A program made the translations under genes and the position numbers. A stretch of 64,000 bases of DNA, taken from positions 496,001 through 560,000 of the forward strand of contig CALDSU010000008.1 in NCBI GenBank assembly GCA_937924525.1, given 5' to 3'. The DNA is from an uncultured Bryobacteraceae bacterium. Lineage in GTDB: Bacteria; Acidobacteriota; Terriglobia; Bryobacterales; Bryobacteraceae. Below the pieces are notes generated by a model that was not told the origin of the DNA, searched no databases, and saw only the letters and a program-made list of their open reading frames with translations. Shown here one piece after another: positions 41,191 to 54,264 of this stretch (positions within the stretch are counted from its first letter, which is position 1; each line of letters opens with the position of its first letter).

Positions 41191-41557
41191 GCAGCCTGCC
41201 GGACGATAAGCCGGTTTCTGTTCCCTTGCGGGCGGTGGTCATTCCTCTGGGCCGCACCATTGCTGGCGGGCTCTAGCGACCTACCCGGGAGTCGAGCGGG
41301 ACGGGCCGTCCCTCCCCCCCTATTTGGTCTTGCTCCACGTGGGGTTTACCCTGCCAGCCGGATCGCTCCGGCCGCGGTGCGCTCTTACCGCACCTTTTCA
41401 CCCTTACCGGAACTGCTTCCGGCGGTATGTTTTCTGTGGCACTGTCCGTGAAGATCGCTTTGAGCGATCCCCCCCGGCCGTTAGCCGGCACGCTGCCCTC
41501 TGGAGACCGGACTTTCCTCCCCCGTTTCCGGGAGCGACCACCTGTCCGGCAGGCTTC
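41191..41557 (-). ncRNA. rnpB: RNase P RNA (class A)
   Basis: Catalytic RNA of RNase P, which matures tRNA 5' ends. P1 is a perfect 12-bp stem between 41544-41555 and 41193-41204. In the minus reading the universal segments appear in order: GGAGGAAAGTCCGG; then ACAGAAAACATACCGCC; GGTAAGGGTGAAA; GGTAAGAGCGCACCGC; AGGGTAAACCCCACG; GGAGCAAGACC; and near the 3' end GAACAGAAACCGGCTTATCG, one base short of the usual form. Ends are estimated from P1. About 367 bases, the normal size. The protein subunit gene rnpA lies 21 kb away. Confidence 0.97.
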
Positions 41558-51569: not shown

Positions 51570-52303
51570 GGTCCCCGGCGCCCGCCGCGGCGGCGGGTCG
51601 CGACTCCCTGCTGATCGTCGTGCCGGCTTTCAACGAAGAGGGCGCCATCGGACACGTGGTGCGCGGCATCCGGGAGGCTCTGCCTGGCGTGCCCGTGCTG
51701 GTGATCGACGATTGTTCGCTGGACGGCACCGTCGCGGCGGCGCGGGCCGCCGGCGCGCACATCCTTCCCCTCCCTCACCACCTCGGTCTTGGCGGGTGCG
51801 TCCAGGCCGGCTACCGCCTGGCTTACGAACTCGGCTATCAGTACGTGATTCGCGTGGATGGCGACGGGCAGCACGACCCGGCCGACATCCCCGCTCTTCT
51901 CACCGCCCTGAAGGTATCCGGCGCCGAAATGGTGATCGGTTCGCGCTTCCTCACCGGCAACCGGGAATACTCCAGCCTGCTGCGTTCGCTGGGGATCCGG
52001 TTTTTCCGCCTCGTCCTGCGGCCGATCCTGGGCAAGTGGGTGCACGACCCGACCTCCGGGTTCGTGGGCGTAAACCGGCGGGCGCTCGAAGTGTTTTCCA
52101 AGAGCTTTCCCCTCGAATACCCCGAGATTGAAGCGCTGGTGGTCTTGCAGCGGAAGCGCTTCCGTTTTCAGGAGGTGCCCTGCCGTATCCGACCGCGCAT
52201 GGCGGGCCGCTCTTCCATCACGCCCGTCCGATCGATGTATTACATCCTGCACGTCCTGCTGGGGGTGCTGGTGAACGTGCTGAGGCTGAAGCCAAAGCCG
52301 TAG
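51566..52303 (+). CDS. GT2 glycosyltransferase, polyprenyl-phosphate mannosyl/glucosyl-transferase type
   Basis: 245 residues; ATG overlaps the stop of the previous gene (ATGA). 'LLIVVPAFNEEGAIGHVVRGI', 'VIDDCSLDGTV' and 'YVIRVDGDGQHDPADIPALL' are the DPM1/GtrB-like metal and nucleotide motifs; 'GSRFLTGNREYSS' and 'HDPTSGFVGVNRRAL' follow. The C-terminus has a hydrophobic stretch. Probably charges a polyprenyl phosphate for cell-surface glycans, working with the preceding GT2. Confidence 0.87.
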   Translation: MRSPAPAAAAGRDSLLIVVPAFNEEGAIGHVVRGIREALPGVPVLVIDDCSLDGTVAAARAAGAHILPLPHHLGLGGCVQAGYRLAYELGYQYVIRVDGDGQHDPADIPALLTALKVSGAEMVIGSRFLTGNREYSSLLRSLGIRFFRLVLRPILGKWVHDPTSGFVGVNRRALEVFSKSFPLEYPEIEALVVLQRKRFRFQEVPCRIRPRMAGRSSITPVRSMYYILHVLLGVLVNVLRLKPKP

Positions 52304-52327
52304 CCGGACGCGACGCCTCCGCACAAA

Positions 52328-52385
52328 GAAAAAACCGCATCCTTCACGGCGAGGAGACCAACTCGCGCCGGAAGCAATGCGGTTT
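52328..52385 (-). terminator. Rho-independent terminator of the minus-strand non-coding locus
   Basis: A 9-bp stem (52332-52340 with 52377-52385) encloses a second GC stem, and on the minus strand it runs directly into TTTTTTCTTT. It faces the end of the GT2 operon. Confidence 0.75.
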
Positions 52386-52597
52386 GCCCCAAGGCAGGGC
52401 GAAGGATCTGGAACCGGTCTGGCCAGGGAGAGCCGGTCTCGCTGCCGGTCACCAACCGGGAACTCCGCATCCGTCGCGATTCCCGGGACCCCTTCCCAGA
52501 GCCGCTACCGAGGACCCAACGACACTGAAGTTACAGCCTGCCCGGCTCTTCCTCGCCGGGCCTTTCATACATCAAGCTATGAAATCGAATCAAGCCC
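52386..52597 (-). ncRNA. Structured minus-strand region, function unknown (module B)
   Basis: Successive perfect stems: 52563-52569 with 52578-52584 (TTTCATA/TATGAAA), 52540-52546 with 52555-52561 (GCCCGGC/GCCGGGC), and 52456-52462 with 52480-52486 (CCGGGAA/TTCCCGG). The region ends at the terminator at 52328-52385. No coding frame fits. It may be the 3' part of the same transcript as module A. Not matched to a known RNA family by eye. Confidence 0.4.
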
Positions 52598-52752
52598 AAA
52601 AAAACCCCTCTGTTGCAACCAACAAGCGATCAGTGAGGTACATCGCTTCAAACAACCGGCTCCCGCAAGCACGTTGTTCCGTCACTCACCGGTAGCATCG
52701 CCTGTCTAGTCACAACAGAGGGCAGGTTGAAAAGCACTTCTACCGATTCGCC
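52598..52752 (-). ncRNA. Putative small structured RNA, 6S-like outline (module A)
   Basis: Minus-strand RNA of about 150 bases. Its ends close through a perfect 10-bp stem (52606-52615 with 52713-52722). Inside lie a 6-bp stem and, on the 3' side, a small hairpin (AAGCGAT/ATCGCTT, 52624-52630 with 52641-52647). A TTTTTTT run follows the closing stem. A long closed rod with a 3'-side hairpin in a central bulge is the outline of 6S RNA, which binds sigma-70 RNA polymerase. Sequence identity to 6S could not be checked. Confidence 0.4.
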
Positions 52753-52756
52753 AGTC

Positions 52757-52785
52757 ATCTTAGCATCGCGGATGCCACTTTGAAA
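52757..52785 (-). promoter_or_regulatory. Predicted promoter of the minus-strand non-coding locus
   Basis: Minus strand: -35-like TTTCAA (52780-52785) and -10 TAAGAT (52757-52762), spaced 17 bases. The -35 match is weak, the -10 good. Confidence 0.45.
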
Positions 52786-52878
52786 AGTCCGTAAGTGATT
52801 GATTTTGCGTAATCCAATTTGTGCAGATGGGCTGGTTTGGTGCGGCGGGTGTGTCCATATGACACAATCGGAGACGGA

Positions 52879-54264
52879 ATGAGTCGCCTGCTGTGGCTCC
52901 TGCCGGTCCTGGCCGGCGGCGGGCTGCCAATCTGGGCGCAATCGGCGCCCCCTTCTGGATCCATATCGTCCCAGGAAGAGTTTTTCGATATTTATGCGGA
53001 GCATCCCCGCCTGTTTCTGGGCTCGCAGCGTCTGCGTTTGCTTCGCCGGGAGCGGGAGCGCCGCACCATGCGCTGGCTGCAATTTGAGACCCTTGTCACC
53101 GGCGGGGCGCCGATGCCTGAACCCGGGTTCGCCTACGCGCTGTTTTACCAGGTGAGCGGCGACGTAGTCATCGGCCAGAAGGCGGTGGATTGGGCGCTGT
53201 CGCCCAGGGCTGCCGACCTGCGCCAACTGGCGCTGGTGTTCGATTGGTGCCAGCCGTTGCTGGATGATCGGGACCGGGAGGCGCTGGCGGCGAGACTGCG
53301 CGCCCGGGCCGACGAACTCGAGAAAGATTCGTCCCTGCCAGCGCGGCGAAGCCGGGTTTTGGCCATGGCCGCCCTGGCTGGCCATAACTCCTTTCGCCCG
53401 AACCGATTCTTTGAGAACCTGGTGAAGCAGTGGTGGCGGGGACAGATCGCGCCCGCCCTCAAAGCCGGCCGGGACGCGATCCCCCGCGACGATTCGTTCC
53501 CGCTGCTGGAGATCCTGCATGTGGTGCGCGACAACTTGCAGATCGACCTCCGCGAGGACGTCCCGTTCTGGTTCAAGGAACTCCCGATCTACCATCTGCT
53601 CAGCTATTACCCGGCCAGCTATCCCGCCGCGGAAAACGAATACCGGATCCCCGCCCTCAAGCGCCTGGGGGAACCTGATACCCGGCGCGCCCTGTTCTCG
53701 CGCGCGGCGGAGCTGGCCATGGTGGCGTTTGAAACCAACGCCCCGGAAACCCAGGTGCTGCAAGGCTGGCTGATGCACGACCGGTTTCTGCTGCGAGGCG
53801 CCCTGGGGATTCCCTACGAGTTTCTCTGGGCTAATCCTTACCAGCCGGGCCTCAGCTACTATCACATCCCGCTGGTGCACCATGATCCGAAATTTGGCCG
53901 CCTGTTCGTGCGCTCCTCGTGGGAGGAGGATGCGGTCTGGCTGGGGTATTGGGATGGCCAACTGCAAACCTTTCAGGACGGGAGCCCGGCCAATCTGAAG
54001 TTGGACGCCTCCCAGCCCCCCCTGTCGTTCCCGGACGTCCTGGTCGCGACGGCGGGGCTGGCGGCCCGGTGCGAGATCCGCCTGGAGGAAGACCAGGACC
54101 TGCTGATCGTCGGACTGAAACCGCACACCCGTTACGAGTTTGAAGTGGAGAACCTCGAGCTGTTTGAAATGAAATCCGACGCGGGCGGAATCGTCCACCT
54201 GAAGCTTCCGCGCAACAAGAGCCTCGATGTCCGCGCGCGCGAGGCGGCCGCCGGGCAGTCGTAA
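52879..54264 (+). CDS. Secreted hypothetical protein, alpha/alpha-toroid-like
   Basis: 461 residues with a signal peptide (about 1-22) and a start preceded by GGAGACGG. The helical region ('HPRLFLGSQRLRLLRRERERRTM', 'RQLALVFDWCQPLLDDRDREALAARL') and the later beta-rich part ('FGRLFVRSSWEEDAVWLGYWDG') recall heparinase II/III-like polysaccharide lyases. I see no safe catalytic set, so the name stays open. The gene stands alone, with the unexplained non-coding locus upstream. Confidence 0.7.
   Translation: MSRLLWLLPVLAGGGLPIWAQSAPPSGSISSQEEFFDIYAEHPRLFLGSQRLRLLRRERERRTMRWLQFETLVTGGAPMPEPGFAYALFYQVSGDVVIGQKAVDWALSPRAADLRQLALVFDWCQPLLDDRDREALAARLRARADELEKDSSLPARRSRVLAMAALAGHNSFRPNRFFENLVKQWWRGQIAPALKAGRDAIPRDDSFPLLEILHVVRDNLQIDLREDVPFWFKELPIYHLLSYYPASYPAAENEYRIPALKRLGEPDTRRALFSRAAELAMVAFETNAPETQVLQGWLMHDRFLLRGALGIPYEFLWANPYQPGLSYYHIPLVHHDPKFGRLFVRSSWEEDAVWLGYWDGQLQTFQDGSPANLKLDASQPPLSFPDVLVATAGLAARCEIRLEEDQDLLIVGLKPHTRYEFEVENLELFEMKSDAGGIVHLKLPRNKSLDVRAREAAAGQS

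Follow-up and report, generated by a model that had tools for sequence, protein, structure and literature searches.

What is encoded on the minus strand between positions 52328 and 52785 of the window, the 64,000-nt stretch of DNA from an uncultured Bryobacteraceae bacterium that was analysed here? An earlier note, made from the sequence alone, had described a structured RNA locus on that strand, with two ends marked by T runs, and had offered three explanations: 6S RNA followed by a second RNA, a new two-module RNA or a repeated element. The general description was borne out by the sequence, by relatives and by covariation, and the homologous loci together with covariation supported the two-module alternative. 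The minus strand of this region folds at −203.3 kcal/mol, compared to a mean of −176.4 kcal/mol for shuffled sequences (sd 6.7, z −4.0), with none of 100 shuffles being as low. We refer to the 5′ module as RNA1 and to the 3′ module as RNA2; both recur in relatives and show compensatory changes there, and it is this conservation that sets the locus apart from chance. The reading that we favour, with a probability of about 0.72, is that the locus is a family-restricted pair of structured noncoding RNAs that would be co-transcribed from a sigma-54 promoter and act in trans.

The features of the locus are collected in Table 1. The 10-bp long-range stem and the T7 run described in the earlier note can be read directly from the sequence, the arms of the stem being perfect complements. 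The distal terminator is likewise present, recognised as an inverted repeat with a T6 run and by a terminator scan; its repeat consists of 20-nt arms (52332–52351 and 52366–52385) that are 75% complementary, and the scan found an inner hairpin as well.

Table 1. Features of the locus, in window coordinates
Feature	Position	Strand	Basis or remark
RNA1	52598..52751	-	~154 nt; leader, bulged rod, tip, T7 end; start predicted by sigma-54 geometry, end set by the T run
RNA1 closing stem, 3′ arm CCCTCTGTTG	52606..52615	-	sequence; helix 1
RNA1 closing stem, 5′ arm CAACAGAGGG	52713..52722	-	sequence; helix 1
RNA1 nearly invariant tip CGTGCTTGCGGGAGCCGG	52656..52673	-	conservation, 74 loci
RNA1 5′ leader, conserved, mostly unpaired	52723..52751	-	conservation, 74 loci
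T7 run right behind RNA1 closing stem, terminator-like	52598..52604	-	sequence
Sigma-54-type −24/−12 promoter	52763..52776	-	GG 52776-52775, GC 52764-52763; 74/74 loci
Palindrome TGTGTCCATATGACACA, candidate activator site	52850..52866	.	sole exact 12/12 genome match
RNA2 core, probable diverged copy	52377..52525	-	covariance-model match, 33.3 bits
RNA2 terminator, stem CCGCAT.../...ATGCGG + T6	52329..52385	-	inverted repeat, terminator scan
RNA1-RNA2 linker, locally G+C-rich	52526..52597	-	sequence
Divergent gene, predicted heparinase II/alginate lyase-like fold	52879..54264	+	tblastn, AlphaFold2, Foldseek

By blastn against 61 genomes (our own and 60 relatives) the locus was matched in 18, and outside its own genome none of these matches extended beyond base 210 of the query. 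A covariance model of RNA1 (R1), built from seven loci with the window sequence excluded, recovered RNA1 in the window with 98.9 bits (E 6.2e-22 in its own genome) and detected it in 171 of the 200 genomes sampled from the family, covering 70 of 76 genera. The search for further copies across the genome returned one RNA1, and elsewhere RNA1 is usually single too, with two to four copies in a minority of genomes, which speaks against the repeated element entertained earlier. A refined model based on 74 loci found RNA1 in 196 of the 250 genomes of an order sample, all but one of them members of the same family, and in three of the 347 genomes of a phylum sample, all three again from that family. 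The eight genomes of one genus, g62 (G073, G124, G151, G180, G189, G197, G205 and G213), gave no RNA1 match, and rpoN is present in seven of them. An exact-pattern scan of named genomes yielded at least 80 loci, in records titled Bryobacterales, Bryobacteraceae, Solibacter, Paludibaculum, Acidobacteria, Terriglobia and similar. The pattern was also seen in two records titled Arcobacter and Planctomycetota (L139 and L152), which are probably mislabelled bins. The 74 loci used for the alignment and the promoter counts were drawn from 88 (L002–L089) by leaving out six repeats and eight presumed near relatives; they are mutually related, and counts over them are not independent events.

In RNA1 a leader that is for the most part unpaired precedes a bulged rod, the tip of which, CGUGCUUGCGGGAGCCG, hardly varies; a T run comes after the rod. 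The leader begins with GAATCG in the window and has the consensus GAATtG..Gaagt...AACCTG over the 74 loci. Conservation is concentrated in the tip, the unpaired leader and the closing stem, and the sequences of the internal loops are variable; the tip departs from the consensus in L018, L016 and L087, the last of which is without the conserved tip. In the 74-sequence alignment (A5) 89.5% of the cells at paired positions can pair, compared to 78.5% in shuffles, and both-side changes occur in 32 of 43 pairs versus 22.5 in shuffles. The number of both-side-changed cells was 322 against a shuffled average of 98.7, and not one of 500 shuffles reached 322; when partners were slid by one to three columns, pairing dropped to 47.6% at most. 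These slide and shuffle controls matter because A5 was fitted to the model structure and leans towards it. In the closing stem, four pairs are the same throughout and are thus neutral with respect to covariation. An earlier, unfitted MAFFT alignment (A2) showed double changes in two of 20 predicted pairs; the central part of the rod was misaligned in it, and it was set aside in favour of A5. The covariation test that had been proposed for homologous loci thus gave compensatory changes beyond the controls in RNA1, and in RNA2 as well (below), as befits structured noncoding RNAs.

The suggestion that the first part of the locus is 6S RNA did not survive. A cmscan of 52250–52900 against 4227 Rfam families gave none over cut-off, and at E values up to 10 the hits were confined to three miRNA families (E 1.9–7.1), 6S not being among them; 14 homologous loci likewise had no Rfam match at E up to 1, 6S included. 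The 6S RNA of the genome (RF00013) was found at 62.2 bits on another contig (G000:C16:28134-28331). Among 21 genomes searched, our own and 20 relatives, 6S was detected in 10 at E up to 0.01, in three of these over the curated cut-off; all 10 belong to the 13 same-family genomes, own included, and none of the 6S matches lay at the RNA1 places listed for those genomes. Two 6S RNAs occur in some genomes, and with its long rod, asymmetric internal loop, T-run end and similar size RNA1 does have the outline of a polymerase decoy of this type. However, it is the tip, the leader and the closing stem that are conserved in RNA1 while the internal loops vary and, given the lack of a model match here and in the 14 homologues and a separate 6S gene elsewhere, we consider it very improbable that RNA1 is the 6S RNA of this genome or a second copy of it. 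Pairing of the RNA1 tip (GCGGGAGC) with 6S RNA (GCUCCCGC) was considered and rejected, as it held for the genome's own 6S and for none of nine other 6S matches (one partial). A protein sponge of the CsrB/RsmZ type was also discarded: the 74 loci contain on average 9.6 GGA motifs versus 7.2 in mononucleotide shuffles, and 1.8 A-N-GGA motifs versus 1.4.

Located 3′ of RNA1 is a second conserved structure, RNA2, with a GGACGCGG loop and its own terminator. Of 50 candidate stretches, 28 went into the covariance model of RNA2 (R3), which again excluded the window sequence. The loop is invariant in the 28 loci of the corresponding alignment (A6), which had been selected by that very motif. In a plain MAFFT alignment of the 28 loci both-side changes were seen in 17 of 31 pairs, a value that none of 500 shuffles attained (6.8 in shuffled alignments). 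RNA2 follows RNA1 in 63 of the 74 loci at E up to 0.1. A threshold of 0.001 leaves 61, and of the two matches lost by it one is a short piece; the 28 loci that built the model are included in these counts. RNA2 was not found in the remaining 11 loci. The gap between the two RNAs ranges from 8 to 216 nt over the 63 loci and is 73 nt in the window. Under strict filters RNA2 was detected in 79 of 121 family genomes, and our own genome was missed by these filters. In the window the match has an E value of 2e-7 when 651 bases are searched and 1.1e-4 for 343 kb, with the next best place in the same stretch scoring 3.8 bits, and the window RNA2 is probably a diverged homologue. It occupies the part of the locus to which the earlier note had assigned three further perfect stems. 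The two structures thus occur in a conserved order.

How might the pair be transcribed? The hexamer TAAGAT, taken in the earlier note for a −10 box, is indeed present at 52757–52762, but its reading as a stand-alone promoter element has to give way to a sigma-54-type element, immediately 3′ of which this stretch is located in the 74 loci, and a sigma-70 promoter scan of 52000–53200 returned no site. A GG-N10-GC element with its first G 26–28 nt ahead of the conserved GAAT start of RNA1 is found at all 74 loci; the control spacings of 6–9 and 11–15 were found in at most 11 of 74 loci in the best 3-nt window. A T precedes the GC in 74 loci and the GG in 63, and the flanking bases agree with the sigma-54 consensus. 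The usual sigma-54 geometry presumably places the start of transcription at about 52751, with GAAT beginning one or two bases later; relative to this predicted start the −24/−12 element lies at the distance appropriate to a sigma-54-dependent small RNA. On these grounds we infer that RNA1 is transcribed from a sigma-54 promoter, which would probably respond to a signal. The genome encodes rpoN (PF04552), as do 13 of 13 sampled family genomes (own included), and contains 17 matches to the sigma-54 activator domain (PF00158); one RNA-bearing genome that is 64% complete (G039) had no rpoN match. In another family of the same order (f3), rpoN was found in one of six genomes in one sample and in four of nine in another. 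Co-occurrence with rpoN is nevertheless uninformative as proof of sigma-54 use, because the gene is also present in 12 of the 13 family genomes in which RNA1 was not matched. A TTGACA-like −35 hexamer at sigma-70 distance, overlapping the sigma-54 promoter, was present at 28 of the 74 loci versus approximately 1.5 expected, which makes an overlapping sigma-70 promoter possible in that subset. An overlapping sigma-54/sigma-70 promoter is stated for GlmY by the title of a paper cited in PMC3162934.

The neighbouring genes give some hints as to the context in which the RNAs may operate. At 63 of the 74 loci a divergent gene is detected by tblastn, always upstream of RNA1; the number of loci counted as lacking it was 18 at first and 11 after tblastn. 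The divergent protein of the window had no Pfam match, and no family was common to the 19 homologues scanned. Its AlphaFold2 model (mean pLDDT 86.5) was matched by Foldseek to 8khv as the best hit (E 1.6e-7, TM-score 0.52, rmsd 12.7) and to 3a0o_B (E 6.9e-7), with TM-scores of about 0.5, and a profile search of solved chains gave weak matches, the best of them (E 0.0068) to a lyase that is unrelated, with heparinase II at E 0.18. As judged by the model, the protein resembles glycosaminoglycan/alginate lyases of the heparinase II/alginate lyase-like type, which hints at control of the envelope or of exopolysaccharide. On the 3′ side of RNA1/RNA2, 34 of the 74 loci carry a small convergent gene (approximately 2479–2763 in L064, and 33 more; a 35th match lies upstream), the product of which has an end similar to ...YRCENCKTLYLPNPDETPRSGT. 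In the window it is instead a convergent glycosyltransferase gene that adjoins the locus. Among the same-strand downstream frames the largest shared cluster comprised nine of the 74 loci. An mRNA leader or riboswitch is therefore unlikely: no consistent same-strand gene follows the RNAs, and the glycosyltransferase gene of the window runs against them.

Further upstream lies a candidate site for an activator. The palindrome TGTGTC-N5-GACACA occurs once in the 5.52 Mb of the genome. Its centre is approximately 107 bp upstream of where the RNA is predicted to start, and 12 bp separate the palindrome from the divergent gene. Its inner part, TGTC-N5-GACA, is present within 300 nt upstream at 59 of the 74 loci, and other spacings from 0 to 15 occurred at most once each. 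In the 343 kb of sequence comprising the loci, the longer form was found 53 times, in each case between −160 and −80 of RNA1; the first base of the palindrome is 105–142 nt, mostly 113–130 nt, before GAAT. Across 121 family genomes the palindrome was detected in 86, mostly once, with the reversed control detected in three; it was present in 86 of 109 genomes with RNA1 versus none of the 12 without an RNA1 match (Fisher 7e-8, relatedness uncorrected). At least 48 of 75 listed sites (55 genomes) are within 400 nt of RNA1; among the other 27, the G014 site adjoins RNA1, G126 and G132 had no RNA1 place entered, and the places of some further RNA1 copies (e.g. in G035 and G086) were absent from the comparison. 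One could imagine that the palindrome acts in the divergent mRNA, where it would form a hairpin, but at several loci GACA is changed to GCCA with the other arm unchanged; this breaks the pairing, and a DNA site is therefore favoured. As to the protein that might bind there, 10 of the 17 PF00158 matches were scanned and none exceeded an NCBIfam cut-off. Our guess that the palindrome resembles PilR sites found no support in a literature search, and PrsR/PEP-CTERM is an idea for the activator.

A scheme can be proposed that would accommodate these elements. An enhancer-binding protein, possibly bound at the palindrome, would activate RNA polymerase-sigma-54 at the −24/−12 element, and minus-strand transcription would begin at the predicted start. 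RNA1, with its bulged rod, exposed leader and nearly invariant tip, would be released at the T7 end, and RNA2 would arise from a common transcript by read-through or by cleavage and extend to the second terminator at 52329. RNA1 would then act in trans, as probably would RNA2, each by way of conserved stretches that are left unpaired: the leader and tip in RNA1 and the GGACGCGG loop in RNA2. These would either pair with mRNAs or bind a protein.

In this scheme the assignment of the palindrome is ambiguous. A perfect TGTC-N5-GACA is found in 54 of the 63 loci that have the divergent gene and in five of the 11 that do not, and the extra RNA1 copies of multi-copy genomes (L086–L089) keep the sigma-54 box and lack both the palindrome and the divergent gene. 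Because it tracks the gene and is absent from these secondary copies, the palindrome may belong to the lyase-like gene, the start codon of which is 12 bp away in the window; its role could lie with the RNA, with the gene or with the two together. Taken to its extreme, this would make the palindrome an operator of the lyase-like gene only, and transcription of the RNA would depend either on sigma-54, with an activator site that is distant or a different one, or on a sigma-70 promoter that overlaps, in keeping with the TTGACA-like hexamers at 28 loci. We regard this as rather unlikely, as the distance from the palindrome to the RNA start is near-fixed, the palindrome is kept at five loci without the gene, and, in a comparison that scored RNA1 and the palindrome over 121 genomes, the 12 that have no RNA1 match lack it.

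A different arrangement of the same parts would turn RNA1 into a conditional terminator, controlled in the manner of a riboswitch or by a protein, that gates RNA2 as its output. The closing stem and T run are terminator-like and RNA2 is close behind in 63 of 74 loci; moreover, the tip is nearly invariant while most stems vary. However, no conserved alternative (antiterminator) pairing was seen on inspection by eye and RNA2 was not found behind RNA1 at 11 of the 74 loci, making such gating doubtful. Equally doubtful is its more specific form, in which RNA1 would be a sensor-terminator with a single activator site, the tip binding a ligand, a protein or an RNA and thereby setting the amount of RNA2; if true, it would represent an RNA switch with a noncoding RNA as its output, under sigma-54 control. 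That the locus is a repeated or mobile element, or an untranslated region without RNA function, is scarcely credible: the two to four copies of RNA1 in a minority of genomes would fit a mobile element, but RNA1 is usually single-copy, the divergent neighbour is conserved at 63 of 74 loci, and both the fixed promoter and the covariation argue against it. We thus return to the trans-acting pair under sigma-54 as the preferred reading.

The enterobacterial GlmY/GlmZ are structured small RNAs that have a sigma-54 promoter and, further upstream, sites for an activator. The locus described here resembles them in its RNA structure, its sigma-54-type element and its candidate activator site, and differs in belonging to another phylum and in having two unlike modules in tandem. 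Rfam includes GlmY/GlmZ models, and these matched neither the locus nor its 14 homologues. For GlmY/GlmZ, QseF and upstream activating sequences have been described (PMC6075780). In the survey by Weinberg et al. 2010 (PMC2864571), Solibacter-1 is a candidate motif from Solibacter usitatus only, with its RNA status given as ‘?’ and no Rfam accession in Table 1 of that paper. As judged by its table row, Solibacter-1 shares with RNA1 an occurrence in Solibacter, since Solibacter-titled records are among those that carry RNA1; RNA1 is mostly single-copy, while Solibacter-1 would be multi-copy in one genome. The same survey reports Acido-1 and Acido-Lenti-1 (RF01686 and RF01687, accessions as submitted to Rfam) as noncoding RNAs of Acidobacteria (PMC2864571); the locus and the 14 homologues gave no match to either model. 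In the part of the literature that was searched there was no description of this RNA pair and no characterised regulatory RNA of Bryobacterales, the candidate motifs of the 2010 survey (PMC2864571) being all that was met with. Since no Rfam family exceeded its cut-off and the literature searched held no description, we call the RNA pair new, or apparently undescribed, with the reservation that it may yet coincide with Solibacter-1, for which the comparison covered the table row.

The pair is found in most of the sampled family and had no match elsewhere in the phylum sample; its sigma-54 promoter is strikingly regular. Bryobacterales are widespread in soil, and the promoter, the candidate activator site and the conserved RNA segments offer a handle on sigma-54 control in this order. 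A large catalogue of candidate RNAs reportedly appeared in 2017. Elsewhere in the window, the minus strand at 41191–41553 encodes RNase P RNA of bacterial class A (283.9 bits).
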